NCBI GenBank assembly: GCA_947589545.1
Contig: CANQBA010000024.1
Location: forward strand, 1 to 51,176
Reading direction: 5' to 3'
Length of the DNA stretch: 51,176 nucleotides
Source of the DNA: an uncultured Oscillospiraceae bacterium
GTDB lineage: Bacteria > Bacillota > Clostridia > Oscillospirales > Oscillospiraceae
Position 1 is the stretch's first letter. Each line of letters begins with the position of its first letter. Shown here one piece after another: positions 19,027 to 49,165 of the stretch. Made by a program: the position numbers and the translations under genes. The notes beneath the pieces are model-generated. The model did not search any database. It was not told the DNA's origin and was given only the letters and a program-made list of their open reading frames with translations.

Positions 19027-19043
19027 GTGCCCGAATTGGGCAC
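19027..19043. repeat. Dispersed 17-bp palindrome, site 1
   Basis: GTGCCC-GAATT-GGGCAC, perfect arms. It lies in the gap between the NYN gene stop and the integrase, 18 bases upstream of the integrase ATG. Confidence 0.9.
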
Positions 19044-19046
19044 ACA

Positions 19047-19760
19047 TTAACTTTCAATGTTACGCGGAATCACGCAGAGCGGATCCTCAAGGTTATGCGG
19101 GGGCTTTGCAACACAGCTGTGAAGCCCATCAATGTGCTCATTCAAACTCGGCTTGATGGTGTGCCACATCGGGTCGAGAATAAAGTCAATCCCCTCACGC
19201 CGCGCGTGCTTGGCTGCCGGGACAAAGTCGCTGTCTCCTGCAATTAGGACAATTTGATCTATGAGCCTCTTATGCGCCAGAGAAGCGATATCAAGGCCAA
19301 TCCTCATGTCAACCCCTTTCTGCTGGATATCGAGGTGGAAGTCGGACTCTTTTAAATCGGCCACTTGTATATCTCCGCGGCATAACCGCTTGACAGCATC
19401 GGCATTCATAACGTAGCCTGCTGTGCTTTCCAGCAGTTCACCCATCCTCAGGGCGACTTTCCTCTTATGGGTCAGAGCCTCATGAAATGAGTTTGTCCAG
19501 GAATAAAGTTCGGTTCGTTTGAGCCATACATTTTTCTGGGTGAGCGGGTGCATGATCGTTTTATCTGATGGAGGACAGTCATATACGAAAATACGGTAGA
19601 GGTATTTCTGTTCTCTTGTCTCATTTCCGAAGTCTCCCAAGTGACGTATGCAATACTCGCAAAGCTCACTCGCGCGTTCCTGACCCGTTTTTTGCCCAAA
19701 CAGAATGTTGGCCCGCTTCTGATAAAATGCGCTGTCCACCAAAATAGCTGTGCGTATCAT
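19047..19760 (-). CDS. NYN-domain protein (LabA/PIN-like), putative ribonuclease
   Basis: A 237-residue protein with the NYN fold pattern: an N-terminal strand AILVDSAF with D9, D151 and D157 in GVDMRIGLD, and D176/D178 in LIAGDSDFVPAAKHAR. In this superfamily these acidic residues bind metal for RNA cleavage; the specific target here is unknown. The ATG at 19760 has AAGGAGG 8 bases upstream. It has its own promoter and a long structured leader, so it is expressed independently of the CI transcript, probably in the lysogen. The reading ends in unique sequence with no second domain visible. Confidence 0.85.
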   Translation of the reverse strand: MIRTAILVDSAFYQKRANILFGQKTGQERASELCEYCIRHLGDFGNETREQKYLYRIFVYDCPPSDKTIMHPLTQKNVWLKRTELYSWTNSFHEALTHKRKVALRMGELLESTAGYVMNADAVKRLCRGDIQVADLKESDFHLDIQQKGVDMRIGLDIASLAHKRLIDQIVLIAGDSDFVPAAKHARREGIDFILDPMWHTIKPSLNEHIDGLHSCVAKPPHNLEDPLCVIPRNIES

Positions 19761-19776
19761 TTGATTTTCCTCCTTA

Positions 19777-19832
19777 AGAAAAAACCCTTGGGTTCGACAC
19801 ATCCCGGATGGTGGGAGGTCTACTTCCAAGGG
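19777..19832 (-). promoter_or_regulatory. Terminator-like hairpin in the NYN-gene leader
   Basis: In the minus-strand leader CCCTTGG (19832-19826) pairs with CCAAGGG (19791-19785), enclosing a smaller ATCC/GGAT hairpin, and is followed by TTTTTTCTT and then the AAGGAGG site. A terminator placed between promoter and ribosome site suggests attenuation or a read-through switch. Confidence 0.55.
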
Positions 19833-19867
19833 CTGTTTAAACAATGGTAGCATTAAGCTACACGCTT

Positions 19868-19896
19868 ATAATATGCCCTTGAATCCGATTTGTCAA
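19868..19896 (-). promoter_or_regulatory. Promoter of the NYN gene
   Basis: Minus strand TTGACA (19896-19891), 17 bases, TATTAT (19873-19868), about 108 bases upstream of the ATG. It sits 37 bases from palindrome site 2. Confidence 0.85.
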
Positions 19897-19933
19897 CAGT
19901 TAAATTTTTTTACCTCCAAAAACAAGCGGCGCG

Positions 19934-19950
19934 GTGCCCAAAATGGGCAC
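19934..19950. repeat. Dispersed 17-bp palindrome, site 2
   Basis: GTGCCC-AAAAT-GGGCAC, perfect arms, between the stop of the PH-like gene (19981) and the promoter of the NYN gene. Confidence 0.9.
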
Positions 19951-19980
19951 GGGATTGTGCCAAACCCGAGATTGTCCTTA

Positions 19981-20664
19981 TCATTGGCCGGGCTTGAATT
20001 TGTACCCGCAGTTGAGGCATGTTACTACCAGCTTGTTGGCTCCCAATGCCCCGCCAACCAGACCTACCGGGCCGGCGACAAAGCTCCCCGCAGCTGCTTT
20101 GCCAAAGCTGAAGCCCTTTTTGTTGGCGGAGAGGGACGTGGAGCCGCATTTGGGACAGCAGGCCACACCGGCAGCTTTATTCGCCTTGATCCGCTGCTTG
20201 GCCTGCCCTCGTTTGGTCAGGGGGGTAGTGGCGGGAAGATCTTCGGCCCAGATGGTCTCAAGGGTTCCGTGCTCCGGAAAGGACATGAAAGTTTCCAGCA
20301 GGGTATTCTGAAACGCGGACAGCGTCCGTCTGTTTCCCAGCTCCACCGTCATAGATGTCCCGCTTCCGCTGAGGGGAAGCTTGTAGGTTAACGGGCCGCT
20401 GATATTCCCAACACCAATTCCCGCCTGGAAAAACAGACTGGCGGCTTGCACCTGCCCAAGAACGCGGCTGCAGAACAGCACCCGTCGGTCAGTGACCGCC
20501 ACCACACCGTGGAGGGTGCCGACACCGGATATAGTGCAGTTGGCCACAATCGCATATGCCACGGGTTCGTCAGCCAGGATTTCATCCGCTGCTTTGATGG
20601 ACGAGCCGGCCATAAGCGTCGGTGTGCCGCTCAGTTTAATTGCTTCCTGTAACGTCATGCTCAT
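19981..20664 (-). CDS. PH-like domain protein with C-terminal zinc ribbon
   Basis: A 227-residue protein. Residues ~15-130 resemble bacterial PH-like (YokE-type) domains, including GVVAVTDRRVLFCSRVLG and LSGSGTSMTVELGN. A Lys-rich linker follows, then a CPKCGSTSLS...VTCLNCGYKFKPG zinc ribbon enclosing a Gly/Ala-rich hydrophobic hairpin (about residues 180-205) that could insert in a membrane. The ATG at 20664 has GGAGG 8 bases upstream. Its function is unknown. It is one of five accessory genes in the lysogenic, minus-strand arm. Confidence 0.75.
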   Translation of the reverse strand: MSMTLQEAIKLSGTPTLMAGSSIKAADEILADEPVAYAIVANCTISGVGTLHGVVAVTDRRVLFCSRVLGQVQAASLFFQAGIGVGNISGPLTYKLPLSGSGTSMTVELGNRRTLSAFQNTLLETFMSFPEHGTLETIWAEDLPATTPLTKRGQAKQRIKANKAAGVACCPKCGSTSLSANKKGFSFGKAAAGSFVAGPVGLVGGALGANKLVVTCLNCGYKFKPGQ

Positions 20665-20684
20665 GTGCGTTTCCTCCAATTGGT

Positions 20685-21461
20685 TTACTTTGAGGCAAAA
20701 TACGCTGTTGCGAACTGATATGCTTTGGTGTTTTTGGCGGGGGTCCACATATCGTTGCCAGGGCGATTAGCGATAGATTTGTAGACGCTGATGTCTTTAG
20801 CCGCAGCATTTGCAAACGCATAAAAATCGCTCATCATGGGACTATCGCCAATATTCCCTGGCTCCACACCGCGAAGAGAGCAGTATACAGCATAACCATA
20901 TAGCGCTGCAGATTCTAAAGTGTCTACATTCTTAAGTGCGGCATCTGCGGCGTGGTTTCGTCCAGACAGCCAGGACATATGTATGTTTCTTGCCGTAAGG
21001 TAGGCCATGAACGACGGCGGGATATGTTTGGTGTCACCAGTCATTACTGATGTCTCAAACTGCATCTGGTCATCATCGGTTGCACCCTTTGGAAAAAGTA
21101 GTCCGAATTCTGACTTACCGGCAGGGCGGATCTCAGAGTCCGGGGATATTTCCAACGGCTCGACGAGTCCCTCTGTTGTGATGGCATACTCTCTTGCGCT
21201 CTGCTCGTCTTTCGCATAAATGTGCCGGGTGTTCTTCCGCCCGGTGGCAGCCTTCTTGCCGCTGACCACAAACTTTGGAAAATTTGAATACCCATACACC
21301 GGATGTGGAACCGGAGCATTGGCAATGATGTCATCGCCCTTGTCTTTTAGGACGAATTCCGGGCCTCCATCCCAATTTTTTGTCTTCGCTTTCTTCGCCC
21401 GTTGCTTTGCGGCAAAGAATAATAATATCGCTAAAACAAGCAAAATGATGATTATTGTCAT
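20685..21461 (-). CDS. Membrane-anchored protein of unknown function
   Basis: 258 residues. Residues 2-19 are one strong transmembrane helix (TIIIILLVLAILLFFAA) followed by a Lys/Arg-rich stop, giving an N-out, cytoplasmic-body topology or a signal anchor. The soluble part holds a FPKFVVSGKKAATGRKNTRHIYAK stretch (shown in part: FVVSGKKAATGRKN) and a C-terminal helical region. I do not recognise a family with confidence. The ATG has AGGGGGCG upstream. It sits 20 bases before the PH-like gene and probably shares its transcript. Confidence 0.7.
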   Translation of the reverse strand: MTIIIILLVLAILLFFAAKQRAKKAKTKNWDGGPEFVLKDKGDDIIANAPVPHPVYGYSNFPKFVVSGKKAATGRKNTRHIYAKDEQSAREYAITTEGLVEPLEISPDSEIRPAGKSEFGLLFPKGATDDDQMQFETSVMTGDTKHIPPSFMAYLTARNIHMSWLSGRNHAADAALKNVDTLESAALYGYAVYCSLRGVEPGNIGDSPMMSDFYAFANAAAKDISVYKSIANRPGNDMWTPAKNTKAYQFATAYFASK

Positions 21462-21511
21462 TCGGACGCCCCCTTGTGTTAAGTCGTGACTATACTTGCC
21501 CCTTTACGCTT

Positions 21512-21528
21512 GTGCCCGAATTGGGCAC
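21512..21528. repeat. Dispersed 17-bp palindrome, site 3
   Basis: GTGCCC-GAATT-GGGCAC, perfect arms, 3 bases beyond the stop of the gene ending at 21532 and about 50 bases upstream of the next ATG. On the minus strand one arm occupies the -35 position of a possible TATAGT -10 box (21494-21489). Confidence 0.9.
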
Positions 21529-21531
21529 GGG

Positions 21532-22101
21532 TCATACGTTCCGGTTTTTCCCGTAGAAAATCCGCCCGGAATTGAGCGTTTTTCTGTAACTGCAAGCTAA
21601 AGCAATATTCTTGTCAGGATTTACGCAGGCCTTTGCGTCACTGCATTCCTGATATCTGGAACAACATGACCACTCTGACGGGTAACGGTTCATGGATTCA
21701 ATCATGAGTTTTAGAATCAAGTCTGTATATTTTTCAATGGGGTAATCATTATCAACATTGAGACGTACATACTTCTGCTGAGATGCCGCGACTTTTTTGG
21801 GGAACTCGTCAGGAATCAAGTCAGAGAAGATGTCCGGAAATGCCAAGTATTGTGCTTTTCCGTGGAGTTTGATACGGAAAACAACCATACTGCCTAACTT
21901 CAGTGATACATAGTCCCCGCTGAATTTGTAGCCGGGCTTCACTGCCGCCACGGATAGCAACGAAGCGTCACCGCCGCATTTTTCAACGGTCGATACAATT
22001 TGAGGATATATCCGGTTGATATAGTCTTTTTCAGCCTGACCATCTGGTACAATGTCACTCATGGCGATCTGATCAGTGTCATTGAAATTATTCTCGCTCA
22101 T
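21532..22101 (-). CDS. Unknown phage protein with Cys-rich C-terminus
   Basis: 189 residues, starting at ATG 22101 with GGAGGG upstream and overlapping the BRCT gene by 4 bases (ATGA). The middle (about 50-125) looks like a small alpha/beta domain. The C-terminal SCCSRYQECSDAKACV...ALACSYRKTLNSGRIFYG holds six Cys; I recall this module as a C-terminal cap on phage exonuclease-like proteins, but no nuclease motif is visible here. Coupled translation with the BRCT protein suggests the two act together. Function unknown. Confidence 0.7.
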   Translation of the reverse strand: MSENNFNDTDQIAMSDIVPDGQAEKDYINRIYPQIVSTVEKCGGDASLLSVAAVKPGYKFSGDYVSLKLGSMVVFRIKLHGKAQYLAFPDIFSDLIPDEFPKKVAASQQKYVRLNVDNDYPIEKYTDLILKLMIESMNRYPSEWSCCSRYQECSDAKACVNPDKNIALACSYRKTLNSGRIFYGKNRNV

Positions 22102-23018
22102 GCTTGCCCTCCCTTGGTTGCCTTGACCGCAGTCCAAAAATCACGCTCGTTGACAATAGTAACACCAGCTCCGGCTTTGCGGAGCGCTATTGCTTCTTCT
22201 ACCTTGCGACCGTAGCAAGAAAAAGCCCAGCAGGGGTTGCCTTCATTCCCGACAATGAGATAATCTGTCTTTTTGGAAACGCTGGATCGGAAGACTCCGC
22301 CGAGCTCGACAACCTCATCTGTTATGGTGTCACGGTCGCATACACTGGATTTTCCTGTGAAGCAAAACACCTTTTTTGCGAAGCTGATATCCGGGCGGTA
22401 AGCGCAGATTCCTTCAACGGAGTATTTCTTCCGAAGATCGTTAAAATCAGTCTCTCTAAGGTTCCATGAATCTCTAAAATCAATGAAAGTGCCAAAGAAC
22501 GCCATCAGCATATTTCTCTCATCCTCGGAGATTCTGCCATCTGCCAAGGCTGTATGTATCAAACTGTCGATTTCATCAAAAGGATATGTGCCCCGCAAAT
22601 AGGAGTTATTCTCAAGCCAAGTCCGGAGTTTGATGATCTCGCCATCCGAAAGCGTTCCGTCTGACACAATGCCGTGTATCAGACCGGAGAGAAATTGAAT
22701 TGAAGAAGTTGTGACATCATAGTATTTTGAGTCATCCACAAAGTTACTGCAAAGCCAGAGAATATCTTTCGATTCCTCTGCGTCAAGGACACCGTCAGCC
22801 AAAGCTTCTTGAACGACAGGTATAATCTCGGAAAAGGGATGACGGTTTTGGAGATGGGCATGGAGGGAACACCAGTTGGCAAGTTCCATGGCCTCAGCCT
22901 CAGATAGCCCATTTTCTGCCGTCATGCCAGCAACAAGACCACGGAGAGTATTGGCGGCTTTGTGCAACTCTGCCGGTTTTGTGAATTGACGGTAATCCTC
23001 AATTTCTGCGGTTCCCAA
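22098..23018 (-). CDS. Tandem TerB-like helical repeats plus BRCT domain
   Basis: 306 residues. Two related helical repeats (about 20-100 and 105-185) share PF..I...I..ALADG.....E and resemble TerB-like domains. Residues ~215-300 form a BRCT domain: VFCFTGKS, then ITDEVVELGGVFRSSVSKKTDYLIVGN, as in NAD-dependent DNA ligase and RFC. BRCT domains bind DNA ends or phosphoprotein partners. The start is TTG at 23018, preceded by AGGGGGT; no ATG or GTG fits better. It is coupled to the next gene by a 4-base overlap. A role in DNA-damage sensing or phage exclusion would be inference only. Confidence 0.8.
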   Translation of the reverse strand: MGTAEIEDYRQFTKPAELHKAANTLRGLVAGMTAENGLSEAEAMELANWCSLHAHLQNRHPFSEIIPVVQEALADGVLDAEESKDILWLCSNFVDDSKYYDVTTSSIQFLSGLIHGIVSDGTLSDGEIIKLRTWLENNSYLRGTYPFDEIDSLIHTALADGRISEDERNMLMAFFGTFIDFRDSWNLRETDFNDLRKKYSVEGICAYRPDISFAKKVFCFTGKSSVCDRDTITDEVVELGGVFRSSVSKKTDYLIVGNEGNPCWAFSCYGRKVEEAIALRKAGAGVTIVNERDFWTAVKATKGGQA

Positions 23019-23036
23019 ATCAGTACCCCCTATTTT

Positions 23037-23053
23037 GTGCCCAAAATGGGCAC
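23037..23053. repeat. Dispersed 17-bp palindrome, site 4
   Basis: GTGCCC-AAAAT-GGGCAC, perfect arms, between the CI-like gene stop (23082) and the TTG start of the BRCT gene, 18 bases upstream of that start. Confidence 0.9.
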
Positions 23054-23081
23054 TTATTTTATTTCTCTAATATGGCTTTTC

Positions 23082-23789
23082 TTAGCCCACGCTTTCGCCT
23101 GTGTCCACAGGGAGAGCGGGGCTATTTTTTTCTTGGTATTCGGAAAGAATCTGGCGGATTAGTGCCCGGTCGCGGTCGGAGGCTTCACCATAAAGAGCGA
23201 TGAGCTCCGGGAAATAGGGATCTGACTTGTACCTCCGCACTGCCGCCAGCGTGTCGCGCTCCACGCGCGTCAGGTTGGACGAGGGATATTCGCCGGAGCG
23301 TCGGGCTCTCTCTGCGTCGCAAATCGCGTTGAATGCCTGAGTGAAGACGATATCCAGGTCCTCCACGATTTTGTCTCCGTAGTCGTTGGTGCCCGTGGTG
23401 AAACTGATCATCTCCACCGCGAAATCAAACCACCGGGCCACTGCCAGCTCATCCGGCTCAAAGTAAAGCCGTGTGTCCAGCCACGCGACCAGCGTCTTCT
23501 CGTCGCAGAAGGACGGCATGACCAAGGTGGGTGGGATCATCTGCTCAACATGGAACATCAGCGGCCCATAGTATTCCAGAATCGTGTCCCAATTCTCAAA
23601 AATCCCATCACCCAGGACGTAATTCGGCGGCACGTTGAAGATTTGAGAAATTGTTTTGAGTGTGCTGTAATCCGGGTCCTGCGACGATGTCTCCCACATG
23701 GCCACGGTGGACCGACCCACATGCACCTGCTTAGAAAACTTGTCCTGCGTCAAACCCAGAACCTTTCTCAAATGCTTTATCCTATTCAT
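23082..23789 (-). CDS. CI-like XRE-family prophage repressor
   Basis: A 235-residue repressor. Residues 3-58 are an XRE helix-turn-helix (LRKVLGLTQDKFSKQVHVGRSTVAMWE in part; LGLTQDKFSKQVHVGRSTV). The C-terminal ~170 residues are helical and lack an S24 peptidase Ser/Lys dyad, so induction by RecA-type self-cleavage is not supported. The ATG at 23789 has AGGTG 7 bases upstream and is preferred to GTG at 23798. The gene is divergent from a Cro-like gene over a region with three TGTCAT-N5-ATGACA operators, one lying exactly within its own promoter. Confidence 0.88.
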   Translation of the reverse strand: MNRIKHLRKVLGLTQDKFSKQVHVGRSTVAMWETSSQDPDYSTLKTISQIFNVPPNYVLGDGIFENWDTILEYYGPLMFHVEQMIPPTLVMPSFCDEKTLVAWLDTRLYFEPDELAVARWFDFAVEMISFTTGTNDYGDKIVEDLDIVFTQAFNAICDAERARRSGEYPSSNLTRVERDTLAAVRRYKSDPYFPELIALYGEASDRDRALIRQILSEYQEKNSPALPVDTGESVG

Positions 23790-23808
23790 GGAAGTCACCT
23801 CTCCTCTG

Positions 23809-23837
23809 ATTATATGTCATTAATTATGACAGTTCAA
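23809..23837 (-). promoter_or_regulatory. Repressor promoter (PRM-like)
   Basis: Minus strand TTGAAC (23837-23832), 17 bases, TATAAT (23814-23809). The 17-base spacer is exactly operator O1, giving clear autoregulation. Confidence 0.88.
23815..23831. promoter_or_regulatory. Switch operator O1
   Basis: TGTCAT-TAATT-ATGACA, perfect 6-5-6 palindrome filling the spacer of the repressor promoter. Confidence 0.85.
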
Positions 23838-23854
23838 GAAAAATGAAAAAATAT

Positions 23855-23873
23855 TTGTCATAGCTATTGACAA
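23855..23873. promoter_or_regulatory. Switch operator O2
   Basis: TTGTCAT-AGCTA-TTGACAA, one mismatch to the O1/O3 pattern. Its right arm is the -35 box of the lytic promoter. Confidence 0.82.
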
Positions 23874-23895
23874 GGCGATACGGATGTGCTATATA
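23867..23895 (+). promoter_or_regulatory. Early lytic promoter (PR-like)
   Basis: TTGACA (23867-23872), 17 bases, TATATA (23890-23895). O2 covers the -35 box and O3 abuts the -10 box, so repressor binding would silence it. Confidence 0.88.
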
Positions 23896-23919: not shown

Positions 23920-23968
23920 ATTTGACGCGATGGAAAAATGTCATAACCACGGACAGGAGGTGGATCGA

Positions 23969-24193: not shown

Positions 24194-24205
24194 GAGGAGT
24201 AAGCA

Positions 24206-24632: not shown

Positions 24633-25085
24633 ATGGACAAAAACCCGATAAATTCCATTCAAAGGGCGCGGATCGGTAAAGGTCTGACCCAGGAAGCACT
24701 GGCCGAGCGGGCCGGGTGCTCCGTTGACTCTGTCCGGGCATGGGAGAGCGGGGCACGCAATTGTCCCATAGATATGTTGGGGATACTCAGTGAGATCCTC
24801 GCGGCCCCCTGGCTGACAGGCGTGTACCTGCGTGAGCAGTCCACGAGCCTGGACGCGCTGATCCCGGAGTTCAAGATCGGGCGGCCCCTGCCGGAGGTGG
24901 CGGCCGCGTACATATCCTGCATCCTGGACTTTGTCGACAACAGATTCGACCGGGCGCTCCTGCGGATGGTAGCCGACGGCCATATCGACGACGTGGAGGC
25001 CGAGGTTTTCGCGAGAATTATGGACATGGGGTCACAGATTACAAAGGCGTACTACGAGATGCGGTTCGCCGCGAGAAAGGAGTAA
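24633..25085 (+). CDS. XRE-family early regulator
   Basis: 150 residues. Residues ~8-62 form an XRE helix-turn-helix (RIGKGLTQEALAERAGCSVD, then VRAWESGARN). The C-terminal part is helical and unlike the CI or Cro proteins here. AAAGGGGACTG precedes the ATG. It is the third XRE protein of the switch region and may time early gene expression or act on a different operator. Confidence 0.82.
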   Translation: MDKNPINSIQRARIGKGLTQEALAERAGCSVDSVRAWESGARNCPIDMLGILSEILAAPWLTGVYLREQSTSLDALIPEFKIGRPLPEVAAAYISCILDFVDNRFDRALLRMVADGHIDDVEAEVFARIMDMGSQITKAYYEMRFAARKE

Positions 25086-27667: not shown

Positions 27668-27856
27668 ATGGTCAAAGTCGGAGACAAGGTTCGCTTTGTG
27701 CCCGGCGGGGTAACGGACGATTCGCACGAGCGCTGTCACAAGGCCGTAACCGGCACGGTGGAATGGGTCAACGAGGCCCACCGCACTTATGGCATCTTCG
27801 CCTATCTGGGTGACGGAGAGCGCCGGCGGCCATATCGGGAAAGCTTTAAATTTTGA
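27668..27856 (+). CDS. Small SH3-like phage protein
   Basis: 62 residues, basic, with VGDKVRFVPGG...VTGTVEWVNE resembling a KOW/SH3-type small barrel. GGGAGGG precedes the ATG. It lies between the helicase and parA genes. Function unknown. Confidence 0.6.
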   Translation: MVKVGDKVRFVPGGVTDDSHERCHKAVTGTVEWVNEAHRTYGIFAYLGDGERRRPYRESFKF

Positions 27857-27873
27857 AAAACAGGGGTGTAACC

Positions 27874-28644
27874 ATGAGAACGATCACAGTTATGAATCTC
27901 AAGGGCGGGGTCGCCAAGACCACCACGACGGTGAACGTGGCGGCGATCCTGGCTCACGACCACAAGAAAAGGGTGCTTGTGGTCGATGCGGACAGTCAGT
28001 GCAATACGACTGAATTTCTTTCAGGCAGCGCGACCCCGGGCGGGACCCTGGCGGATCTGCTCCGGGACAAGGACATCGGCATCTATCGGTACGTCGTGGG
28101 GACGAAGATCAACAACGTGTATCTCATCGCCGGCAGCGACGAGCTTATGGATCTGGATCTGACGAAGGTGGAGACGGAAGCCGTCAATGCCGGGCATCTT
28201 CGGACGCTGGTAAACGGTTTTTCCAAATTAGGCGCGTATGACTACTGCCTCATCGACTGCCCGCCGGCGTTCAACGCGGCCAGCGCCGCGGCGCTTCTGG
28301 CGGCGGATGAAGTCCTGATCCCCATCAAGCTGGACGCCTTTTCCCTGCGGGGGATGACCAATCTGATGCGGCAGATCAACAATATGCGGGCCATAAACCC
28401 GGATCTCAAGCTCCTGGGCTGTCTGCCTACCATGTGGTACGCCTGCAAGCGTACCAAGGCGGCGGAGGAGACCTTGCGGGCATACGGCCTCCCGGTGCTT
28501 CCTCACGTCCGCCGTACCGATAAGGTTGACGATATGACCTTCGCCCAGCGGCCCCTCATTGAGTCGAGTCCCAGGAGCGCCGCGGCGGTGGATTACCGGG
28601 CCTTCGTCCGGTGGCTGGTAAAAGGGGGCGCTTTGAATGGCTGA
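27874..28644 (+). CDS. ParA-family partition ATPase
   Basis: 256 residues. It has a deviant Walker A, KGGVAKTTT (10-18), the Walker A' region VLVVDADSQCN and Walker B in YCLIDCPPAF. ParA proteins use ATP to move plasmid or prophage DNA with ParB. The ATG at 27874 follows AGGGGTG; the in-frame start at 27853 would extend only 7 residues. No N-terminal helix-turn-helix is present, so it is the small (type Ib-like/chromosomal) form. It overlaps parB by 8 bases. Confidence 0.93.
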   Translation: MRTITVMNLKGGVAKTTTTVNVAAILAHDHKKRVLVVDADSQCNTTEFLSGSATPGGTLADLLRDKDIGIYRYVVGTKINNVYLIAGSDELMDLDLTKVETEAVNAGHLRTLVNGFSKLGAYDYCLIDCPPAFNAASAAALLAADEVLIPIKLDAFSLRGMTNLMRQINNMRAINPDLKLLGCLPTMWYACKRTKAAEETLRAYGLPVLPHVRRTDKVDDMTFAQRPLIESSPRSAAAVDYRAFVRWLVKGGALNG

Positions 28645-30163
28645 GACGAAAAGCTTCAATTTGGCTGAGATTCTGAAGGACGTGCCCAAGCTGGACACCA
28701 CGGGCGACGGCCAAAAGAGGATCGCGTACATAGACATCGCCCGTTTGGAGGACGACCCGAAGAATTTCTACACCCTGTCGGATCTGGACTCCCTCGTGGA
28801 GAACATCGAGCTGGTGGGGCTTCAGCAGCCACTCCTGGTACGGCCTGATCCTGACGCGACGGGATATTTCATTATCGTCTCCGGGCATCGCCGCCGCGCC
28901 GCCATACGCAAGCTGGTAGACGAGGGCCGGGAGGAGTTGCGGACGATCCCCTGCATCGTGGAATCCGGGCAGGCGTCCGAGGCCATGCAGGAGCTGCGGC
29001 TTATCTTTGCCAACTCCAGCTCCCGCAAGCTTACGGACGCGGAGATCGCCGACCAGGCTGACCGGGTGACCGCGCTTTTGTATCAGCTCAAGGAGGAGGG
29101 CGTCGAGTTCCCCGGTAGGATGCGTGACCATGTGGCCGAGGCGTGTCAGGTCAGCAAATCCAAACTGGCGCGGCTGAAGGTCATCAAGGAAAAGCTTGAG
29201 TCGCCGTTTATTCAGCGGTGGCAAGCCGGCGAACTGGACGAATCCCCAGCCTATGAGCTGGCCAGAATGCCCATGGACATCCAGTGGCGGATCGGCCGGT
29301 TCAAACAGCTCCCCTCCACCTACGACCTGAGGCGAATACGGGAAAAGGCGGAAGAAGGCGCCACATGGAATCCGGAGCTCAGATGCCCGGACGGGAAGCC
29401 CTGCACCCATGGCGACAGCTTCCTGCTTGCGTACGGCGAGCACCCCGGAAGGGGATGCGACGGATCTAAGTGCTGCATGGAATGTCATGACGGCGCGAAA
29501 TGTGAGTATTACTGCTGTGACCGTATGTGCTCCAAGGCCAAAGCTGCGCGGAAAGAGCGACAGCGCCAGGAGAAGGGAAAAGCCGCGACGGCAGCGAAGA
29601 AGCGCTTGACGGCGGCCCAGCGCAAGACCGTCCCCTTCGCGAAGCGGGTGGCCCGCGCAGCTGATGCCGCCGGCCTGGAGGACGATGTAAGAATACCGTG
29701 GGGCTCCTGGGGTGATTCGACTGTCGGCGACGCCAGGGACTGGGCGGATGGACATTTTATACGCTGGCCCGCTTATGGGGTGGAATATCCAAGGTTTTCT
29801 CCTGACGACCTGTCTAAGCCTCTTGCGGCCGTGAAGGTCCTGAAGTGTTCCGCCGACTATTTGCTGGGTCTGACCGACGATCTCCACCCCTCGGCGCCGG
29901 CGCCCACCGAATACATCACCGGCCAGATCCCCGACCGCCCAACTGAAGCCATGGGGCTTTTCGACCTGGGTGATGGCCTGGATCTCTATCGGACGCCTAT
30001 TCGTTGGGACGGAAAGCGGTGGACATTCTCCGGCGGTGTGACCATCGACAGCCCGTGTGTAGGTTGGTTCCCAATCCCTGATACGCCGAAGGCGTTGGCG
30101 CCGACGGGGAATCAGGCTGAAAATCAGATCGTAGAGGAGGCAGATGACGATGACGAGACTTAA
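28637..30163 (+). CDS. ParB-family protein with Cys-rich insert and XRE-like tail
   Basis: 508 residues, long for ParB. Residues ~28-115 are the ParB nuclease-like domain, with GHRRRAA (83-89) in the CTP-binding box. A helix-turn-helix (about 165-183, VAEACQVSKSKLARLKVI) should read a palindromic site. Residues 250-298 hold ten Cys, probably a zinc cluster. Near residue 410, LKCSADYLLGLTDD matches the last helix of XRE domains. The C-terminus is acidic. Its start is coupled to parA. It may read the dispersed palindromes of this prophage, and a one-mismatch copy lies in its own 5' end. Confidence 0.85.
   Translation: MAETKSFNLAEILKDVPKLDTTGDGQKRIAYIDIARLEDDPKNFYTLSDLDSLVENIELVGLQQPLLVRPDPDATGYFIIVSGHRRRAAIRKLVDEGREELRTIPCIVESGQASEAMQELRLIFANSSSRKLTDAEIADQADRVTALLYQLKEEGVEFPGRMRDHVAEACQVSKSKLARLKVIKEKLESPFIQRWQAGELDESPAYELARMPMDIQWRIGRFKQLPSTYDLRRIREKAEEGATWNPELRCPDGKPCTHGDSFLLAYGEHPGRGCDGSKCCMECHDGAKCEYYCCDRMCSKAKAARKERQRQEKGKAATAAKKRLTAAQRKTVPFAKRVARAADAAGLEDDVRIPWGSWGDSTVGDARDWADGHFIRWPAYGVEYPRFSPDDLSKPLAAVKVLKCSADYLLGLTDDLHPSAPAPTEYITGQIPDRPTEAMGLFDLGDGLDLYRTPIRWDGKRWTFSGGVTIDSPCVGWFPIPDTPKALAPTGNQAENQIVEEADDDDET
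28682..28698. repeat. Variant of the dispersed palindrome inside parB
   Basis: GTGCCC-AAGCT-GGACAC, one arm mismatch, 45 bases into the parB coding region (codons for VPKLDT). It may be chance, as it is the only clearly intragenic copy other than site 5. Confidence 0.4.
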
Positions 30164-34065: not shown

Positions 34066-34202
34066 ACATAAGCTTCTGCGTCGGCGACTTTTCTGCCAGT
34101 TTGAGCGCACCGAATTACGAACGCGCTCTGGCGGCGGCGGAATTGCTCCTGGCGGCAGTCAACGCGGCGGGGGCTGTGCCCAAAACGGACACAAATAAAT
34201 AA
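34056..34202 (+). CDS. Possible small phage protein, TTG start
   Basis: A 48-residue frame (PINISFCVGDFSASLSAPNY, then an Ala/Leu-rich helix) that reads like a real protein but has only TTG as a start, no good ribosome site, and overlaps the previous gene by 10 bases. Its 3' end contains variant palindrome site 5. Confidence 0.35.
   Translation: MPINISFCVGDFSASLSAPNYERALAAAELLLAAVNAAGAVPKTDTNK
34176..34192. repeat. Dispersed palindrome, variant site 5
   Basis: GTGCCC-AAAAC-GGACAC, one arm mismatch, about 60 bases upstream of the HUH-type gene start. Confidence 0.6.
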
Positions 34203-34227: not shown

Positions 34228-34258
34228 GGCCCGATTCCGAAAGGAGATTTGGCCGTGG
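34224..34258 (+). promoter_or_regulatory. Hairpin that encloses the ribosome site of the HUH-type gene
   Basis: CCACGGCC (34224-34231) pairs with GGCCGTGG (34251-34258). The 19-base loop holds AAGGAG and the 3' arm holds the GTG start codon, so folding would hinder initiation. Confidence 0.55.
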
Positions 34259-35004
34259 CGAAATACAGGAAGATCATTGAGGCGGGGCCGCTGGTGGTGG
34301 AGACTATCTATCCGGCCCCAAATCCCCGGGACACCCCTGACACACGGGCAGGGAAAAGGAAGCTCAGCTCGGAGGCACAACAGCGGATGAACTTCAAATA
34401 TGCCTGGCAAAAGCTGAGGCTCCTGCTGGCGGCCAACTTTGGGAGGCGGGATCTGTGGATCACCCTGACCTGTGACGACGGTCATCTGCCGAAAAACAGA
34501 GACGAGGCCCAGCGCCTGATCAAGGGATTTTTTCGCCGGCTCAGGCGCGTGAGGGAACGGCGGGGGTGCGGCCTCCGTTATATCTATACCATCGAGCATA
34601 AGCACGGCGACGGCCGGTGGCATTTCCACGTGGTCATGAACGCCACGGGCAGCGATTACAAGGATATCGTCTCCTTATGGGGCGCGGCGCAGAACGTCGA
34701 GATCCGAAACCTCCGCGTGGATAAGGAAAAGAACTTCCGCACGTTGGCCATGTACATGTGTAAGGAGCAGCGGGACTCAGTGGGTCAGCGCCTGTGGTCG
34801 GGCTCGAAGAACCTGATCCGGCCAAAGCCGGAGTGTACGCGGGTGCCCGACGATGAGACCATCCACGTCCCGCGAGGAGCCACAACGCTGGAGGAATCGA
34901 ACATCCGAAATCAATACGGTGTATTCCAATATGTAGAGTACCTTGTGCCCGGCTGGGAGCGTGGGGCGAAGGCACCGCGGCCCAGAAAGCGCCGGAAAAA
35001 ATAA
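34255..35004 (+). CDS. HUH-type (Rep-like) phage endonuclease homologue
   Basis: 249 residues. The pattern is of rolling-circle Rep proteins: motif I-like LWITLTCDD (about 68-75), the HUH-type motif HFHVV (H123, H125) and a candidate catalytic Tyr in AMYMCKEQ (Y167, with Lys three on). HUH enzymes nick single strands through a 5'-phosphotyrosine. This phage also has an initiator and DnaB, so it may have a second role, for example in mobilisation or packaging. GTG at 34255 has AAGGAG 8 bases upstream. The Arg/Lys-rich end (RPRKRRKK) suits DNA binding. Confidence 0.72.
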   Translation: MAKYRKIIEAGPLVVETIYPAPNPRDTPDTRAGKRKLSSEAQQRMNFKYAWQKLRLLLAANFGRRDLWITLTCDDGHLPKNRDEAQRLIKGFFRRLRRVRERRGCGLRYIYTIEHKHGDGRWHFHVVMNATGSDYKDIVSLWGAAQNVEIRNLRVDKEKNFRTLAMYMCKEQRDSVGQRLWSGSKNLIRPKPECTRVPDDETIHVPRGATTLEESNIRNQYGVFQYVEYLVPGWERGAKAPRPRKRRKK

Positions 35005-35699: not shown

Positions 35700-35887
35700 G
35701 GCTTTTGGACGGTACGCTTGGGCGGGTGCGCGGTGCGGGTGTGCCCGCGGGTAATTCCTTGCGAACCACCCCCCGGGGGTAAAAAGTTTTCCCCGCCTTC
35801 GACGAAGACCCCGGCCCAACCTACGTGAAAGATTTTTGCCCCATGAGGAGCCGGGGAAAGAGGCGCGGACGGGGCGATGGGAAGGAG
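35700..35887 (+). other. Non-coding gap before packaging genes, candidate cos region
   Basis: No convincing gene. It contains a GC-rich start, then CCCCCCGGGGGTAAAAAGTTT around 35770-35787 and a Pro-codon-like C-rich run. Its position between HNH and the terminase module is where cos sites lie in related phages, but no cohesive-end sequence can be proven by eye. Confidence 0.3.
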
Positions 35888-36052
35888 ATGCGTTATGGAT
35901 GGACGGAAGAGGACTCGAAAAAGGTGCGGAGGCTGGCGGTGCTGTTGTTGTCATTGCGGGTGATGGACGCGCGGCGGCCGGCGGCGGAGATGCTGATGAT
36001 CTTGCGACTGGCGGGTATGAGAGCGCGGAAGGTGACGGCGGGGTTGAGGTGA
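35888..36052 (+). CDS. Small helical phage protein
   Basis: 54 residues (MRYGWTEEDSKKVRRLAVLL...AAEMLMILRLAGMRARKV). It ends in a GTGA overlap with the ParB-methylase start, which supports coupling. The start is uncertain: the ATG at 35888 has GGAG immediately before it, and upstream in-frame starts exist at 35825 and 35843. Function unknown. Confidence 0.5.
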   Translation: MRYGWTEEDSKKVRRLAVLLLSLRVMDARRPAAEMLMILRLAGMRARKVTAGLR

Positions 36053-37353
36053 CGGGGAAGAGACTGGAGATGAGGGACATCGACAGTATTATCCCCTATG
36101 CCAGAAATGCCAGGATGCATGACGGGGAGCAGATCGCGAAGCTGAGGGGATCCCTTCGACAGTTCGGATTTGTGAAGCCCCTGACCGTTGACGAGGACGG
36201 GAACCTGCTGGCCGGGCACGGGATCCTGACGGCGGCCAGGGCGGAAGGCATGACCGAGGTGCCCTGCGTAGTGGTCTCCGGGATCTCCGAGGTGGACCGG
36301 CAGGCCTATATCATCGCCGACAACGCCCTTGCGGATCTTTCCGCGTGGGATCCCAAGATGCGGGATCTGGAGGTCAAGCGGCTCGAGAGCCTCGGCGCCA
36401 ACACAAAGCTCCTGGGGCTGAAGACCGGGAAGCTGGGCACGGTGGACGTTGGGGCCTATACCAGGGCAGCGCCGGGCGAGGGTGGATCCGCTGAAGGCGA
36501 GGACTGGTTTGAAAACCGGGAGAGGGACCGGGGCCGGCAGGAGGGCAACGACGAGTACAACGAATTTGTGGAAAAATTCGAGCTCAAAAAGACCACGGAC
36601 GACTGCTACACGCCGGATGTGGTGTACGATGCGGTGGCGGAGTGGACGGCGGCGGAATACGGGCTGAACCGGTCACGGTTCGTCCGGCCCTTCTATCCGG
36701 GCGGCGATTATCAGGGGCGGGCGTACGGGCCCGAGGATGTGGTGGTCGACAATCCGCCCTTTTCGAAGCTTGCGGAGATCCTGCGCTTTTACGGCGGCAG
36801 GGGTATCCGGTATTTCCTCTTCGCGCCGGCGCTGACACTCTTCTCCCGCGCGGCGCTGGAGACCGGGTGCTGTATTGCGGCCTATGCCGATATTGTCTAC
36901 GAGAACGGCGCTTCGGTCTGCACGTCGTTCGTGACCAATCTGGAGCCCGAGAACGTGAAGGCCAGGACCGCACCGGCGCTGACCGAGGCGGTGGAGACGG
37001 CGGTTCGCGAGTACCTGCGGGGCAAGCGGGCGAGCCTTCCAAAATACGAGTTCCCTGCTGAGGTCCTGACGGCGCCGGTCATGGGAAGATGGAGCCAGCT
37101 GGGGCTGGAGTTTAAACTGCGCAAGCTGGACTTTGTGCGGATCTCGGAGCTGGACGCCATGAATGCCGATGGCAGGGCCAGCGGCATCTTCGGCGGCGCG
37201 CTGTTGCTTTCGGAGAAGGCCGCGGCAGAAAAGGCCGCGGCGGAGAAAATCGCGGCGGAGAAGGCCGCAGCTGAGAAGGCCGGCGTGACGTGCTGGGAGC
37301 TTTCCGAGCGGGAACAGGCAATCGTCCAAGCTTTGGGCGAGGACAGCAAGTGA
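36049..37353 (+). CDS. ParB-domain / DNA adenine methylase fusion
   Basis: 434 residues. Residues ~8-130 are a ParB/sulfiredoxin-like domain (IIPYARNARMHDGEQI, LLAGHGILTAARAEGM). Residues ~190-370 contain a methylase-like region with the catalytic motif DNPPFSKL and YFLFAPALTLFS, closest in style to EcoRI-type adenine methylases; a classical FxGxG SAM motif is not obvious. A tail of EKAAAEK repeats forms a helical linker. Such orphan methylases may mark phage DNA against host restriction. GTG at 36049 overlaps the previous stop. Confidence 0.82.
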   Translation: MTGKRLEMRDIDSIIPYARNARMHDGEQIAKLRGSLRQFGFVKPLTVDEDGNLLAGHGILTAARAEGMTEVPCVVVSGISEVDRQAYIIADNALADLSAWDPKMRDLEVKRLESLGANTKLLGLKTGKLGTVDVGAYTRAAPGEGGSAEGEDWFENRERDRGRQEGNDEYNEFVEKFELKKTTDDCYTPDVVYDAVAEWTAAEYGLNRSRFVRPFYPGGDYQGRAYGPEDVVVDNPPFSKLAEILRFYGGRGIRYFLFAPALTLFSRAALETGCCIAAYADIVYENGASVCTSFVTNLEPENVKARTAPALTEAVETAVREYLRGKRASLPKYEFPAEVLTAPVMGRWSQLGLEFKLRKLDFVRISELDAMNADGRASGIFGGALLLSEKAAAEKAAAEKIAAEKAAAEKAGVTCWELSEREQAIVQALGEDSK

Positions 37354-39605: not shown

Positions 39606-39622
39606 GTGCCCGACTTGGGCAC
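39606..39622. repeat. Dispersed 17-bp palindrome, site 6
   Basis: GTGCCC-GACTT-GGGCAC, perfect arms, in the terminase-portal gap. Confidence 0.9.
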
Positions 39623-43919: not shown

Positions 43920-43920
43920 G

Positions 43921-43937
43921 GTGTCCAAACCGGACAC
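43921..43937. repeat. Dispersed palindrome, variant site 7
   Basis: GTGTCC-AAACC-GGACAC. Both arms changed together (C to T, G to A), keeping a perfect palindrome. One base after the previous stop and 18 bases upstream of the next GTG start. Confidence 0.8.
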
Positions 43938-45455: not shown

Positions 45456-45473
45456 CCAAAGGAGGTACAAATT

Positions 45474-45887: not shown

Positions 45888-45903
45888 AAAGGAGGTCTAA
45901 CCA

Positions 45904-46335
45904 ATGGCTAAGACTAAACAGCCCGTGCCTGAGACGGACGACGAGCATAACGATGTGGTCATCCTGATGCTGGACAAGCCCAGGGAGCTGCGGCTTGGGC
46001 ATAAGGCGATGAAACGCTTCTCGGCGCTGACCCACAAAAAGATAACTCAAATGCAGGATGCGTTGGAGGACTATGAGACGCTGTCCACCCTTATCTACAC
46101 GATGCTGTGGGCGGAGGACAAGACACTGTCGCCCGGCATGGTGGACGATCTCATCGATGACGCCGGGTGTCGCCAGGAGGATCCGTTGACGCTCGGGGAC
46201 ATTTATGACGCCGTATCTCGGGCGATTACCGCCGCCTTTGGCGGCGATGCGGATGAGCAGGCCAATGGGGAGAACAGCGGGGAGACCGCCGAGGAGTCCC
46301 CTACTCCGGCGGCTGGGACTGGCGAGACAGTCTGA
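45904..46335 (+). CDS. Tail assembly chaperone, short form (gpG-like)
   Basis: 143 residues between tail tube and tape measure genes. ELRLGHKAMKRFSAL and TLSTLIYTMLWAED are typical of the short chaperone. The second frame at 46302-46631 would be added by -1 frameshifting, giving the long gpGT-like form, as in lambda. GGAGGTC precedes the ATG. Confidence 0.88.
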   Translation: MAKTKQPVPETDDEHNDVVILMLDKPRELRLGHKAMKRFSALTHKKITQMQDALEDYETLSTLIYTMLWAEDKTLSPGMVDDLIDDAGCRQEDPLTLGDIYDAVSRAITAAFGGDADEQANGENSGETAEESPTPAAGTGETV

Positions 46336-46631
46336 GCCTGGCCGCCACGCTGGGGATCTCCGTCCAGGAGTGGGAGCTGATAACCCCGGCGGAGCTTAAT
46401 CTCTATGCGCAAGCAGAGAGACGCCGGAGAGAGGATGAGCAGCGTCTTACTGAGGCTAATATCTATTCGCTGGCGGCGCTGATCCGCTCTATGGTATGGG
46501 CCGAACGCCCGCCGTCGTTTGAGCGCGTGTTCCCGGAGCGGGAGGACGCCAAAAAGCCCATGACGGATGAGCAGATGTATGCCCAGGTTGTAATCCTTAA
46601 CCGCATGTTTGGTGGAGAGGAGGTGGACTGA
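46302..46631 (+). CDS. Tail assembly chaperone extension (gpT-like, -1 frame)
   Basis: About 109 residues with no start codon: YSGGWDWRDSLSLAATLGIS, then WELITPAELNLYAQAE and a helical end. The Tyr/Trp-rich junction is typical of gpT. The slip most likely occurs near CCCCTAC (46298-46304), where a Pro tRNA can move from CCT to CCC. The frame stops one base before the tape-measure start. Confidence 0.82.
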   Translation, partial: YSGGWDWRDSLSLAATLGISVQEWELITPAELNLYAQAERRRREDEQRLTEANIYSLAALIRSMVWAERPPSFERVFPEREDAKKPMTDEQMYAQVVILNRMFGGEEVD

Positions 46632-49133
46632 TTGGCAGTTGTCAAAAACTTAATGGTGCGTGCCGGAGCGGACTTTTCAAAGCTCACCAAGGCGATGCAA
46701 AAAGTCCGGAGCGATACCGCGGGGATGCAAAAAAGCGTCAACACCTCCTGTTCGCGCATGTCCTCCGCTGTGGACGGCGTGGGCAAAATGTTCAAGCGCA
46801 TGGCGTCCGCCATCTCCATCGCGGCCATCACGGCGGCGGCCAAAGCGGCCAAGGACGCGTATGATGCGCAAATCGAGGGGGAGACCAAGCTCGCCACCGT
46901 TATGCGCCAGCGCATGGCCGCCAGCAGCGCCGATGTCAAGTCCATTCTCGACCTGACAGCGGCCCAGCAGCGTTTGGGCGTGGTGGGCGACGAGGTGCAG
47001 CTTGCCGGCGCCCAGCAGCTGGCGACGTTTTTGAGCCAGGCTGACAGCCTCAAGACCCTGCTGCCCGCCATGAATGACCTGGTGGCCCAGCAGCACGGCC
47101 TCAACGCCACGCAGGAAAACGCTGTGAGCGTGGGCAATATGATGGGCAAGGTCATGCAGGGGCAGACCTCCGCGCTGCGCCGGGTGGGCATCACCTTTAC
47201 GGCCGCGGAGGAGGCCGCGCTGAAGTACGGCACCGAGGCCGAGCGGGCGGCCATGCTGGCGCAGGTCATCACCAACAACGTCGGCCCCATGAATGCGGCG
47301 CTGGCCGCAACCCCCGCGGGGCGCCTAAAACAGGTGAGCAACGCGCTGGGGGACATCAAAGAGCAATTCGGCCAGGCCGTGAGCCAGGTAACCACCGTAT
47401 TTCTCCCGGCGCTTAACCTGGCGTGCAGCGTGCTGGCCTCCCTGGCCACGCTGGCCAACAAGGTGGCCCAATCCATTGCCAACGTGTTCGGCGGCAGCAC
47501 CGCCGCCGCTAAGACGGTAAATTACACCGCCGCCGCGGCCAGCGGGATGGAGGATCTGACCGAGTCCACCGAGGCCGCCGGCAGCGCCGCCAAGGCCGCG
47601 CAGGCGCAGCTGCTGGGATTTGATAAGATCACCAAGCTGTCAGATAACGCCTCCGGATCCTCCGGGGACGCTTCCGCCGAGAGCGGCGGGGGTGTCGTCG
47701 GAGGCCTCGCCTCCGAGACGGCGGACGGCGCCGATGAGGCGGGCGCGAGCATCGGATGGCTGGAGCGGGCCCTTGCCAGACTTAAAGCCACGGTGAACAG
47801 CCTGGACTTTTCAAAGGCCTCTGCGGCCTTTGAGCGCCTTAAAACGTCTCTCAAGCCGCTTAAGCAGGAGCTGTTCGCCGGACTCCGGTGGGGCTATGAT
47901 AAGGTTTTGGAGCCGCTGGCACACTGGGTCGTGGAGGATGGGATCCCCGGGTTCTTGGACGCCCTGCGCCGAGGCGCATCCGCCTGCGCCGACCCCTTGC
48001 AGCGCCTGGGCGCAGCTTTGGCGCCGCTGGTTTCCGGTGCGTTTGACGGCCTTAAATGGGCCTACGACAATATCTTCATCCCCTTCGCAAACTGGACAGG
48101 CGGCGAGCTTATCCCCGCGTTTCTCGATGCGCTGGCGGGTACGGCGGACGCCCTGTCCGCTGTGCTGGAGGCTCTGCGTCCCTTGGGACAGTGGCTTTGG
48201 GACGAATTTCTCCTCCCCGTCGGCCAGTGGACCGGCGGCGTGATCGTAGATGTCCTCAAAGCAGTTGGCGACGGGCTTAGGGTTGTGGGCGACTGGATCC
48301 GCAAACACAAGCCGCTTGTAGAGGATATTGCCATCGTCGTCGGTTCTTTCGCCGCCGCTTTAGGCGCCGCGGTGACCTTCCTGCCCTCGCCGATTGGGTT
48401 AGTCGTTATCGCCATTGGGGCGCTGATCGCCACCGTGGCGCTGCTGGCAAAAAACTGGGACTCCGTTAAGGAGACTGCCGCAAACGCGTGGGCCAAAATC
48501 AAGGAGACCTGGAGCAACGTGGCCGACTGGTTTGACACAACTGTCATCCAGCCGGTAAAGGCCGGATTCGTCGCGGTCACGACGTTCGCAAAAAAGGCAT
48601 TTTCGGACGCCTGGAGCGGGATCCAAGGCGCATGGGCGTCTGTCTCCTCCTGGTTTGCCACTAAGGTTATCGACCCGGTTAAAAGCGGGTTCCGGAGCAT
48701 GGTCAACGGCGTGATCGGCTTCTTCGAGGGCTTGGCCAACGGGGCGATCCGGGCGGCCAATGCCATCATCAAGGGGCTTAATAAGATCTCGTTTGACATC
48801 CCGGACTGGGTGCCGGTCATCGGCGGCGGGAAATTTGGCTTTGACTTCAAAACACTCAACACGATCAGTCTGCCCCGGCTTGCAAAGGGCGGCATTGTGG
48901 ATCGCCCGACACCCGCCATTATCGGCGAGGCCGGCGCGGAGGCCGTGGTGCCGCTGTCGGAAAACGCGGCTTGGCTGGACGCGCTTGCCCGGCGCATCAC
49001 GTCGCGTGATAAGCAGGGGGCCAGATCCCTGACAATACCCGTGTATATCGGCGGGCGTAAGGTCACGGAGCTTGTCATCCAGGACATCAACGATATTACC
49101 CAGACGACCGGGGTATGTCCGATCCATATTTAA
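46632..49133 (+). CDS. Tail tape measure protein
   Basis: 833 residues. The N-terminal ~280 residues are helical with a TMP-core pattern (VSVGNMMGKVMQGQTSALRR, GPMNAALAATPAGRLKQVSN). Repeated amphipathic segments follow (about 395-560), two hydrophobic helices lie near 590-635 (PSPIGLVVIAIGALIATVAL), and the C-terminal AKGGIVDRPTPAIIGEAGAEAVVPL motif is common to tape measures. Starts TTG directly after the chaperone stop. By the usual ~1.5 angstrom per residue, tail length would be near 125 nm. Confidence 0.94.
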   Translation: MAVVKNLMVRAGADFSKLTKAMQKVRSDTAGMQKSVNTSCSRMSSAVDGVGKMFKRMASAISIAAITAAAKAAKDAYDAQIEGETKLATVMRQRMAASSADVKSILDLTAAQQRLGVVGDEVQLAGAQQLATFLSQADSLKTLLPAMNDLVAQQHGLNATQENAVSVGNMMGKVMQGQTSALRRVGITFTAAEEAALKYGTEAERAAMLAQVITNNVGPMNAALAATPAGRLKQVSNALGDIKEQFGQAVSQVTTVFLPALNLACSVLASLATLANKVAQSIANVFGGSTAAAKTVNYTAAAASGMEDLTESTEAAGSAAKAAQAQLLGFDKITKLSDNASGSSGDASAESGGGVVGGLASETADGADEAGASIGWLERALARLKATVNSLDFSKASAAFERLKTSLKPLKQELFAGLRWGYDKVLEPLAHWVVEDGIPGFLDALRRGASACADPLQRLGAALAPLVSGAFDGLKWAYDNIFIPFANWTGGELIPAFLDALAGTADALSAVLEALRPLGQWLWDEFLLPVGQWTGGVIVDVLKAVGDGLRVVGDWIRKHKPLVEDIAIVVGSFAAALGAAVTFLPSPIGLVVIAIGALIATVALLAKNWDSVKETAANAWAKIKETWSNVADWFDTTVIQPVKAGFVAVTTFAKKAFSDAWSGIQGAWASVSSWFATKVIDPVKSGFRSMVNGVIGFFEGLANGAIRAANAIIKGLNKISFDIPDWVPVIGGGKFGFDFKTLNTISLPRLAKGGIVDRPTPAIIGEAGAEAVVPLSENAAWLDALARRITSRDKQGARSLTIPVYIGGRKVTELVIQDINDITQTTGVCPIHI

Positions 49134-49138
49134 GCTTG

Positions 49139-49165
49139 GGGATGTGCCCAGTTTGGGCACATCCC
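49139..49165. repeat. Dispersed palindrome, extended site 8
   Basis: GTGCCC-AGTTT-GGGCAC (49144-49160), here lengthened to perfect 11-base arms, GGGATGTGCCC and GGGCACATCCC. Six bases after the tape-measure stop and 22 before the next ATG. Confidence 0.9.

Follow-up and report, generated by a model that had tools for sequence, protein, structure and literature searches.

The DNA analyzed here, a stretch of 51,176 bases (the window), is the entire contig C24 of the 3.83-Mb genome of an uncultured Oscillospiraceae bacterium and carries a prophage with a parA-parB operon. A 17-bp palindrome with two 6-base arms around five central bases (a 6-5-6 dyad) is scattered over this prophage, and sequence comparison makes it likely that its copies are dispersed parS, the binding sites of the prophage's own ParB. 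Across the compared genomes, the sites exist and go with this parAB family. The sequence of the sites and the residues of the putative ParB recognition helix tend to change together.

Sites in the prophage

The refined consensus GTGYCC-N5-GGRCAC matched the window exactly nine times, against a mean of 0.03 and a maximum of 1 in 100 shuffles. All nine matches were located within the prophage (19027–49160) and none in the host part, as a reading of the sequence alone (the sequence-only reading) had claimed. That reading had described the palindrome as GTGCCC-N5-GGGCAC, with perfect copies at 19027, 19934, 21512, 23037, 39606 and 49144 and a compensated copy at 43921; each was found at its position, the six perfect ones in gaps between the main open reading frames (ORFs). 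When up to two mismatches were allowed, this original palindrome was matched 14 times; shuffled sequences gave 6.0 on average, and none of 100 reached 14. The copies at 28682 and 34176 were also present; their earlier label as one-mismatch sites was dropped, since either arm may have C or T at position 4 and both are regular variants. The central five bases were indeed biased, being R A N T Y-like across the sites compared. A count over the whole genome revealed three further sites outside the window (C1:98371, C26:4870 and C36:28860), and a reversed control pattern gave two.

The site within parB

ParB relatives were gathered from collections of genomes and viruses on the basis of the protein alone. 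A viral scan with a single ParB query confirmed no relatives, and a scan with a ParB alignment yielded 64 loci. The 213 rows were reduced to 173 by removal of identical N-terminal stretches, and then to 113 by removal of rows with a hidden Markov model (HMM) score <150, a short length or >80% shared 5-mers; this reduction covers collection searches beyond the 400-genome survey described below. ParA was encoded just upstream of parB in 101 of the 109 relatives with enough DNA.

Of the 113 non-redundant genes, 76 had a perfect site in a stretch of 205 nt about the start of parB; 12 more genes matched 11 of 12 positions and 9 more matched 10, giving 97/113 with at least 10 of 12. A control stretch of the same length, 325–530 nt into the same genes, contained no perfect site, one at 11/12 and three at 10/12. 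Among the first ten parB genes compared, eight had the internal site, and G003 and G004 had the 11-of-12 version (G, C and L are our labels for genomes, contigs and loci).

All 76 perfect sites in parB were in the same codon frame, as expected if the selected object were the peptide V[SP]xxDT of the ParB N-terminus and the palindrome a by-product. However, among the 83 parB genes that encode V[SP]xx[DG]T, the exact DNA word was used in 76, compared to 5.6 expected from their own codon usage, and a peptide-only constraint was rejected on this basis. The word also recurs at 155 dispersed places, base 4 mostly matching, and in G219 the palindrome at the parB place lies in another reading frame as GTGTTC-N5-GAACAC, with copies on one contig at 35978, 37615, 43736 (in parB) and 52181. 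The comparison of these genes shows that the parB-internal site is conserved at the DNA level, and the peptide explanation is practically excluded.

Co-variation of the sites with ParB residues

We compared base 4 of the parB site with that of the 155 dispersed sites, which came from 67 of the 76 phages with a perfect parB site. Phages with T on both arms of the parB site had 73 T/T, 10 mixed and 1 C/C dispersed sites, and those with C on both arms had 16 C/C, 1 mixed and 1 T/T. Where the parB site was mixed, the dispersed sites were 25 C/C, 20 mixed and 8 T/T. These counts suggest that, when the parB site is symmetric, base 4 of the dispersed sites usually agrees with it, and that mixed parB sites are accompanied by every kind.

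The link of base 4 to ParB was examined in 560 contrasts over approximately 260 residues, using the 95 of 113 phages with at least one exact GTGYCC site; phages with Glu179 or with GTGTTC sites lie outside this set. Residue 17 ranked first, followed by 178 (Ser178, phi 0.58; in the putative recognition helix), 20, 175 and 174. The link of residue 17 is trivial because this residue is encoded by the site, as is residue 20, and residues 175 and 174, in the same helix as 178, had no significant pair support. Sites with C at base 4 were in the majority in 14 of 14 phages with Ser178 versus 13 of 68 with Ala178. On a tree of the same 95 phages, from which the helix and the site-encoded part of ParB had been left out, eight independent contrasts at residue 178 went the same way in a mean of 6.3 cases and the opposite way in none, with no difference in 1.7 (median p 0.03).

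The five phages with Glu179 contained no GTGYCC in 72 kb and three GTGYCG sites, in two phages, whereas the 107 others contained 272 and 1, respectively, in 1.63 Mb. The three copies read GTGTCG-N5-CGACAC, and a third Glu179 phage has GTGTCACCTTCCGACAC. Contact of Arg179 with G, and of Glu179 with C, at that base pair would explain this shift.

The ParB protein family

The N-terminal domain of ParB matched PF02195 (E 1.3e-6, 28.8 bits against a cut-off of 26.3). Its best PDB profile match was Noc (E 4.8e-11), Spo0J/ParB profiles also matched, and GHRR was invariant across 67 ParB rows. These features indicate a CTPase-fold N-terminal domain, which would bind cytidine triphosphate (CTP). The operon also encodes a ParA-type ATPase (phrog_164, E 2.9e-58) and contains a dyad site that appears to co-vary with ParB. 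The best PHROG match of parB itself, phrog_27290, has no known function, and the C-terminal part of the protein is long, with conserved cysteines. At approximately residues 400–415, preceded by a conserved cysteine cluster, LKCSADYLLGLTDD resembles by eye the end of XRE-type helix-turn-helix domains; together they could be a fused second DNA- or metal-binding part.

Association of the motif with ParB

In the genus, GTGCCCRANNYGGGCAC was present in 8 of 34 genomes, mostly as several copies on one contig and singly in G002 and G029. Contigs with clustered sites are prophages that have parA, parB, replication genes and the regulator XRE3 in common with the window. In most of these contigs, but not in G020C12, the motif ranked first or tied first among repeated 6-5-6 palindromes, and the GTGTCC form led or tied likewise in Flavonifractor phage Cormatin and MT835558. 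Cormatin (ON453905; sites at 15329, 21480, 23600 and 28505) is carried by Flavonifractor plautii YL31 and is listed among 13 induced prophages (PMC10197239).

Among 400 genomes of the family, GTGYCCRANTYGGRCAC was found in 73 and ParB at E<=1e-15 in 38, the three best candidates per genome being scored for ParB. The motif was present in 30 of 38 ParB genomes versus 43 of 362 others (Fisher p 3.7e-18), in a table joined by hand from two surveys assumed to share the 400 genomes, with the ParB genomes taken from among the matches listed.

Similar words were also observed in other settings. The 17-mer at G000:C36:28860 (L001:9961–9977) extends to TGTGCCCAAGTTGGGCACA and lies mid-gene in a different ParB-like gene of another element, where it encodes CAQVGH; G029:C59 has the same word in a gene 94% identical to this one, and G299:C36 has it in a related ParB gene. 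In another family of the order, a stretch of 3.6 kb around a distant ParB (G722:C2 near 2373111, L323) contained four GTGTTC-N5-GAACAC dyads. L121 and L150 (L150:3558–3660) each contain three TGTGAA-N5-TTCACA dyads of the same 6-5-6 shape, possibly repressor operators. At L101:7689–8465 and L102:9314–10102, the motif stands just upstream of likely starts of Ltp-lipoprotein genes (PF07553), next to integrases; Ltp lipoprotein is a superinfection-exclusion factor in some phages.

Observations that weigh against ParB as the reader

Several observations count against assigning the sites to ParB. Near the parB start, 16 of 113 genes matched fewer than 10 of 12 positions. Of the 362 family genomes that lack this ParB, 43 carried the motif, at 95 sites in total (counted by hand), versus 13 matches of the reversed pattern in all 400, and when all candidates were scored in 19 of the motif genomes without this ParB, the best reached only E 2e-10. 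G037:C18 (12089–38547) has six exact sites, and neither parA nor parB was seen between dnaB and the genes that follow it; ParB is present in the related G389:C6, and the XRE3 relative of G037:C18 is 96% identical to the XRE3 of this ParB-bearing genome. A further 16 contigs, from motif genomes without a clear ParB match, contained 1–5 sites each, some of which precede cargo genes such as those for BRCT/TerB-like proteins and Ltp lipoprotein. Loss of parAB, contig breaks, the ParB of another phage or a second reader could each account for such carriers. Conversely, 8 of the 38 ParB genomes had no pattern match; of five of these that we examined, two showed a relaxed match or a family of variant dyads, and the rest are short contigs.

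The residue data have weak points as well. The pairs test at residue 178 gave p 0.03 before correction for the positions examined, and the window ParB has Ala178 yet mainly GTGCCC sites, which makes it one of the exceptional kind (13/68); at residue 179 it has Arg, like the ParB of Cormatin. In the 60 phages with an XRE3 relative, phi for Ser178 was 0.50, little above the best XRE3 value of 0.42. Two of the five Glu179 phages had no clear replacement site in the 72 kb examined for all five. The normal word was kept with Asn179 in 4/5, Thr179 in 2/2 and Lys179 in 1/4, and was absent from the Gln179 row. ParB residues 174–179 align with Caulobacter ParB 173–178, some of which contact parS, in an alignment made by eye.

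Placement and spacing of the sites

Dispersed sites were outside called ORFs in 68 of 183 cases (37%), compared to 9% of random positions; likewise, 68 of 183 (37%) were no more than 60 nt upstream of a called start, compared to 9%. Gene calls for these counts, and for the contigs without this ParB, came from a simple script that lists ORFs and not from gene-finding software. The sequence-only reading had placed many sites 18 bases before a start codon; this was correct for the integrase (site 19027), and the relatives show a trend, with 27 of the 68 near-start sites at 15–19 nt versus 8% of comparable random positions. One Shine-Dalgarno-plus-start was present 8–45 nt downstream of 110 of 196 dispersed sites, a count made without random comparison.

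Both counts near start codons are what would be expected if ParB were the reader and acted chiefly as a transcription regulator like KorB of RK2, with segregation secondary. However, sites kept out of coding sequence and clear of the ribosome-binding site would gather in the same gap anyway, and the sites occur in both arms, including among late structural genes, and inside parB. We regard this regulator-first role as possible and rather unlikely. The placement near starts may reflect regulation, or simply that the space separating a stop codon from the following ribosome-binding site suits a non-coding site best.

The sites of the window plus arm are spaced at 4.3–5.6 kb and look regular (p 0.00015), as do those of G016C12 (p 0.0006), both having been chosen after inspection. 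Over 12 related contigs, which are not independent (13 listed; G003C5 had too few sites), the Fisher value was 3.6e-4, and 4 of 12 were below 0.05 alone. Even spacing was not adopted as a general rule: it is apparent in the plus arm and G016C12, less so elsewhere, and is treated as suggestive.

Other candidate readers and explanations

The conserved early regulator XRE3 might read the sites as operators scattered like stoperators. XRE proteins often bind 6-5-6-like dyads, the CI-type operator of the window has this shape, and XRE3 relatives occur on six G-labelled contigs and in each of the three phage records compared; they were also present in 60 of the 95 motif-bearing loci and on several motif-bearing contigs without this ParB (G037, G242, G301 and G383). 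On the other hand, the ten best of 394 XRE3 contrasts in these 60 of 95 phages (phi 0.34–0.42) fell outside the recognition helix, none with significant pair support. Between G219 and phage Cormatin, the XRE3 recognition helix is nearly unchanged and the motif has shifted, and this reader would leave the parB-internal site unexplained. XRE3 is an improbable reader.

The sequence-only reading had ascribed the sites to a protein other than CI and offered four explanations, of which binding by the phage ParB is strongly supported by the comparisons; stoperators, RNA hairpins and module boundaries were not favored. Two CI-type operators distinct from the 17-bp sites, with the sequence TGTCAT-N5-ATGACA that it had given, were found at 23815 and 23898. 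Stoperators read by the lysogeny repressor are unlikely because, among nine motif-sharing phages compared, G016C12 alone has a repressor whose relatedness to that of the window extends over most of the protein. Hairpins that stabilize or process mRNA at gene junctions would suit the perfect 6-bp arms, the 5-nt loop and the frequent position just ahead of start codons; they are disfavored, to the point of being barely credible, because in asymmetric sites the unpairable C-A on the sense strand is as frequent as or commoner than the tolerated U-G (13 vs 6 in parB, 6 vs 5 upstream of genes), and the sites co-vary with ParB and include a copy within its coding sequence. Equally hard to credit are module-boundary sequences that aid gene exchange without a reader: the post-terminase site (site 7) has counterparts in similar flanking sequence in G016C19 and G028C125, in the latter despite terminases approximately 26% identical, but co-variation with ParB residues and the parB-internal site are left unexplained, so that exchange is unneeded as an explanation and may be a secondary benefit.

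Prophage and gene context

Host DNA extends up to a tRNA-Ser pair at 17493–17736, followed by the integrase and the prophage, whose right end is beyond the contig. The integrase gene directly adjoins the tRNA-Ser at 17645–17736, a likely attachment site. The minus-strand arm contains genes for the integrase, NYN and BRCT/TerB-like proteins, others and the XRE repressor; early regulators, replication genes, parA, parB and head and tail genes are on the plus strand. A second ParB-like protein is encoded at 35836–37353, just before the terminase genes; its first part matches phrog_620 (ParB-like) and phrog_498 (DNA methyltransferase).

Table 1. The 17-bp sites and selected genes of the window.
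Feature	Position	Strand	Context
Site 1, GTGCCCGAATTGGGCAC	19027–19043	.	18 nt upstream of integrase start 19008 (minus strand)
Site 2, GTGCCCAAAATGGGCAC	19934–19950	.	Between 255-aa gene and NYN-domain gene (minus strand)
Site 3, GTGCCCGAATTGGGCAC	21512–21528	.	Between 21532–22137 and 20685–21461 (minus strand)
Site 4, GTGCCCAAAATGGGCAC	23037–23053	.	Between XRE repressor and BRCT/TerB-like gene (minus strand)
Site 5, GTGCCCAAGCTGGACAC	28682–28698	.	Within parB codons 16–21 (VPKLDT); putative core parS; kept here in most relatives
Site 6, GTGCCCAAAACGGACAC	34176–34192	.	Ahead of replication-initiation-like gene 34249–35004; overlaps end of small ORF
Site 7, GTGCCCGACTTGGGCAC	39606–39622	.	Between terminase large subunit and next gene
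Site 8, GTGTCCAAACCGGACAC	43921–43937	.	Before head-tail adaptor gene
Site 9, GTGCCCAGTTTGGGCAC	49144–49160	.	After tape-measure gene
Integrase	17893–19047	-	Likely start 19008 (own reading); beside tRNA-Ser 17645–17736
XRE (CI-like) repressor	23082–23798	-	Presumed reader of TGTCAT-N5-ATGACA, not of the 17-bp sites
XRE3 regulator	24633–25085	+	Weighed as site reader, disfavored
parA	27853–28644	+	Overlaps parB start
parB, 508 aa	28637–30163	+	Proposed reader; ParB_N domain, then putative helix-turn-helix RMRDHVAEACQVSKSKLARLKVI, approximately residues 161–183

Discussion

In the proposed mechanism, a ParB dimer would bind the 6-5-6 dyad through its helix-turn-helix, one half-site per subunit, close as a CTP-dependent clamp, and slide or spread to neighboring phage DNA. 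ParB would then be spread on the excised or replicating genome, and ParA would move the ParB-bearing DNA. With one parB-internal and eight scattered sites, ParB loading could take place over the full length of the phage genome, which would offer ParA a target. The most likely purpose, which we judge about evenly balanced, is spreading on or segregating phage DNA in the non-integrated phase; regulation near start codons, as an alternative or an addition, is less probable. Action in the silent prophage is less likely because parAB lies downstream of the early lytic regulators by gene order. As a tentative wider picture, a large family of integrating phages of Clostridia may carry a ParABS with parS in parB and tiled every few kb, such that clamps cover the whole genome and form a phage-wide coat, organizer and regulator, not a point centromere; its natural series of ParB/site pairs would record shifts of specificity.

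These findings assign a likely binding site, and a likely function, to ParB proteins of a family whose best PHROG match is without known function, in prophages common in one bacterial family (38/400 genomes), and raise the question of why a chromosome-integrating phage has a partition system with scattered sites. The natural pairs of Ala/Ser178 with T/C at base 4 and Arg/Glu179 with C/G at base 6 are ready material for studying the specificity of protein-DNA recognition, and DNA labelling is a possible use of such ParB/site pairs. In the titles and abstract openings searched, with subscription journals largely outside, we found no description of the motif, and none of dispersed parS in Clostridia phages that integrate. 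Prophage ParB-fold proteins are treated in general terms in a survey of the ParB-CTPase fold from 2025, whose available text does not mention the 17-bp sites (PMC12704722).

The system is like other ParABS systems (chromosomal Spo0J/Noc, plasmid ParB) in its parA-parB operon, its ParB_N domain and a dyad site in the operon. The 17-bp 6-5-6 site is unlike those of Spo0J and Noc. Unlike these proteins and plasmid ParB, the prophage ParB has a long C-terminal part with conserved cysteines, and its many sites extend over approximately 30 kb of an integrating phage. Four residues of the DNA interface determine the specificity of ParB and Noc (PMC7383237).

KorB of RK2 is alike in being a ParB-type protein with distal operators. 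Its operators are many and spread, and their site is different from the 17-bp one. In the accessible part of the report on KorB, it acts on promoters from distal operators by sliding (PMC11790492).

The prophage also resembles phage N15 in having a phage partition protein and genome-spread sites, and differs in its integrase beside tRNA-Ser. In N15, a linear plasmid prophage, the partition protein SopB acts with dispersed centromeres. A non-integrating linear plasmid of this type is not what the integrase (17893–19047) and adjoining host DNA indicate; no search for telomere genes was made. In mycobacteriophage RedRock, parS is present at two loci, and each locus consists of eight direct repeats of 8 bp; its prophage is extrachromosomal and without integrase (PMC7157519). 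Both RedRock and, as proposed here, the window prophage are temperate phages with parABS.

Stoperators of mycobacteriophages are asymmetric sites read by the immunity repressor, in the available portion of PMC9283540. For the 17-bp sites, the scarcity of related repressors (1/9) and the separate CI-type operators argue indirectly against the immunity repressor as the reader that defines Cluster A stoperators. The likeness is that a single binding site is repeated many times over a phage genome, and the difference is that here the site and ParB appear to co-vary.

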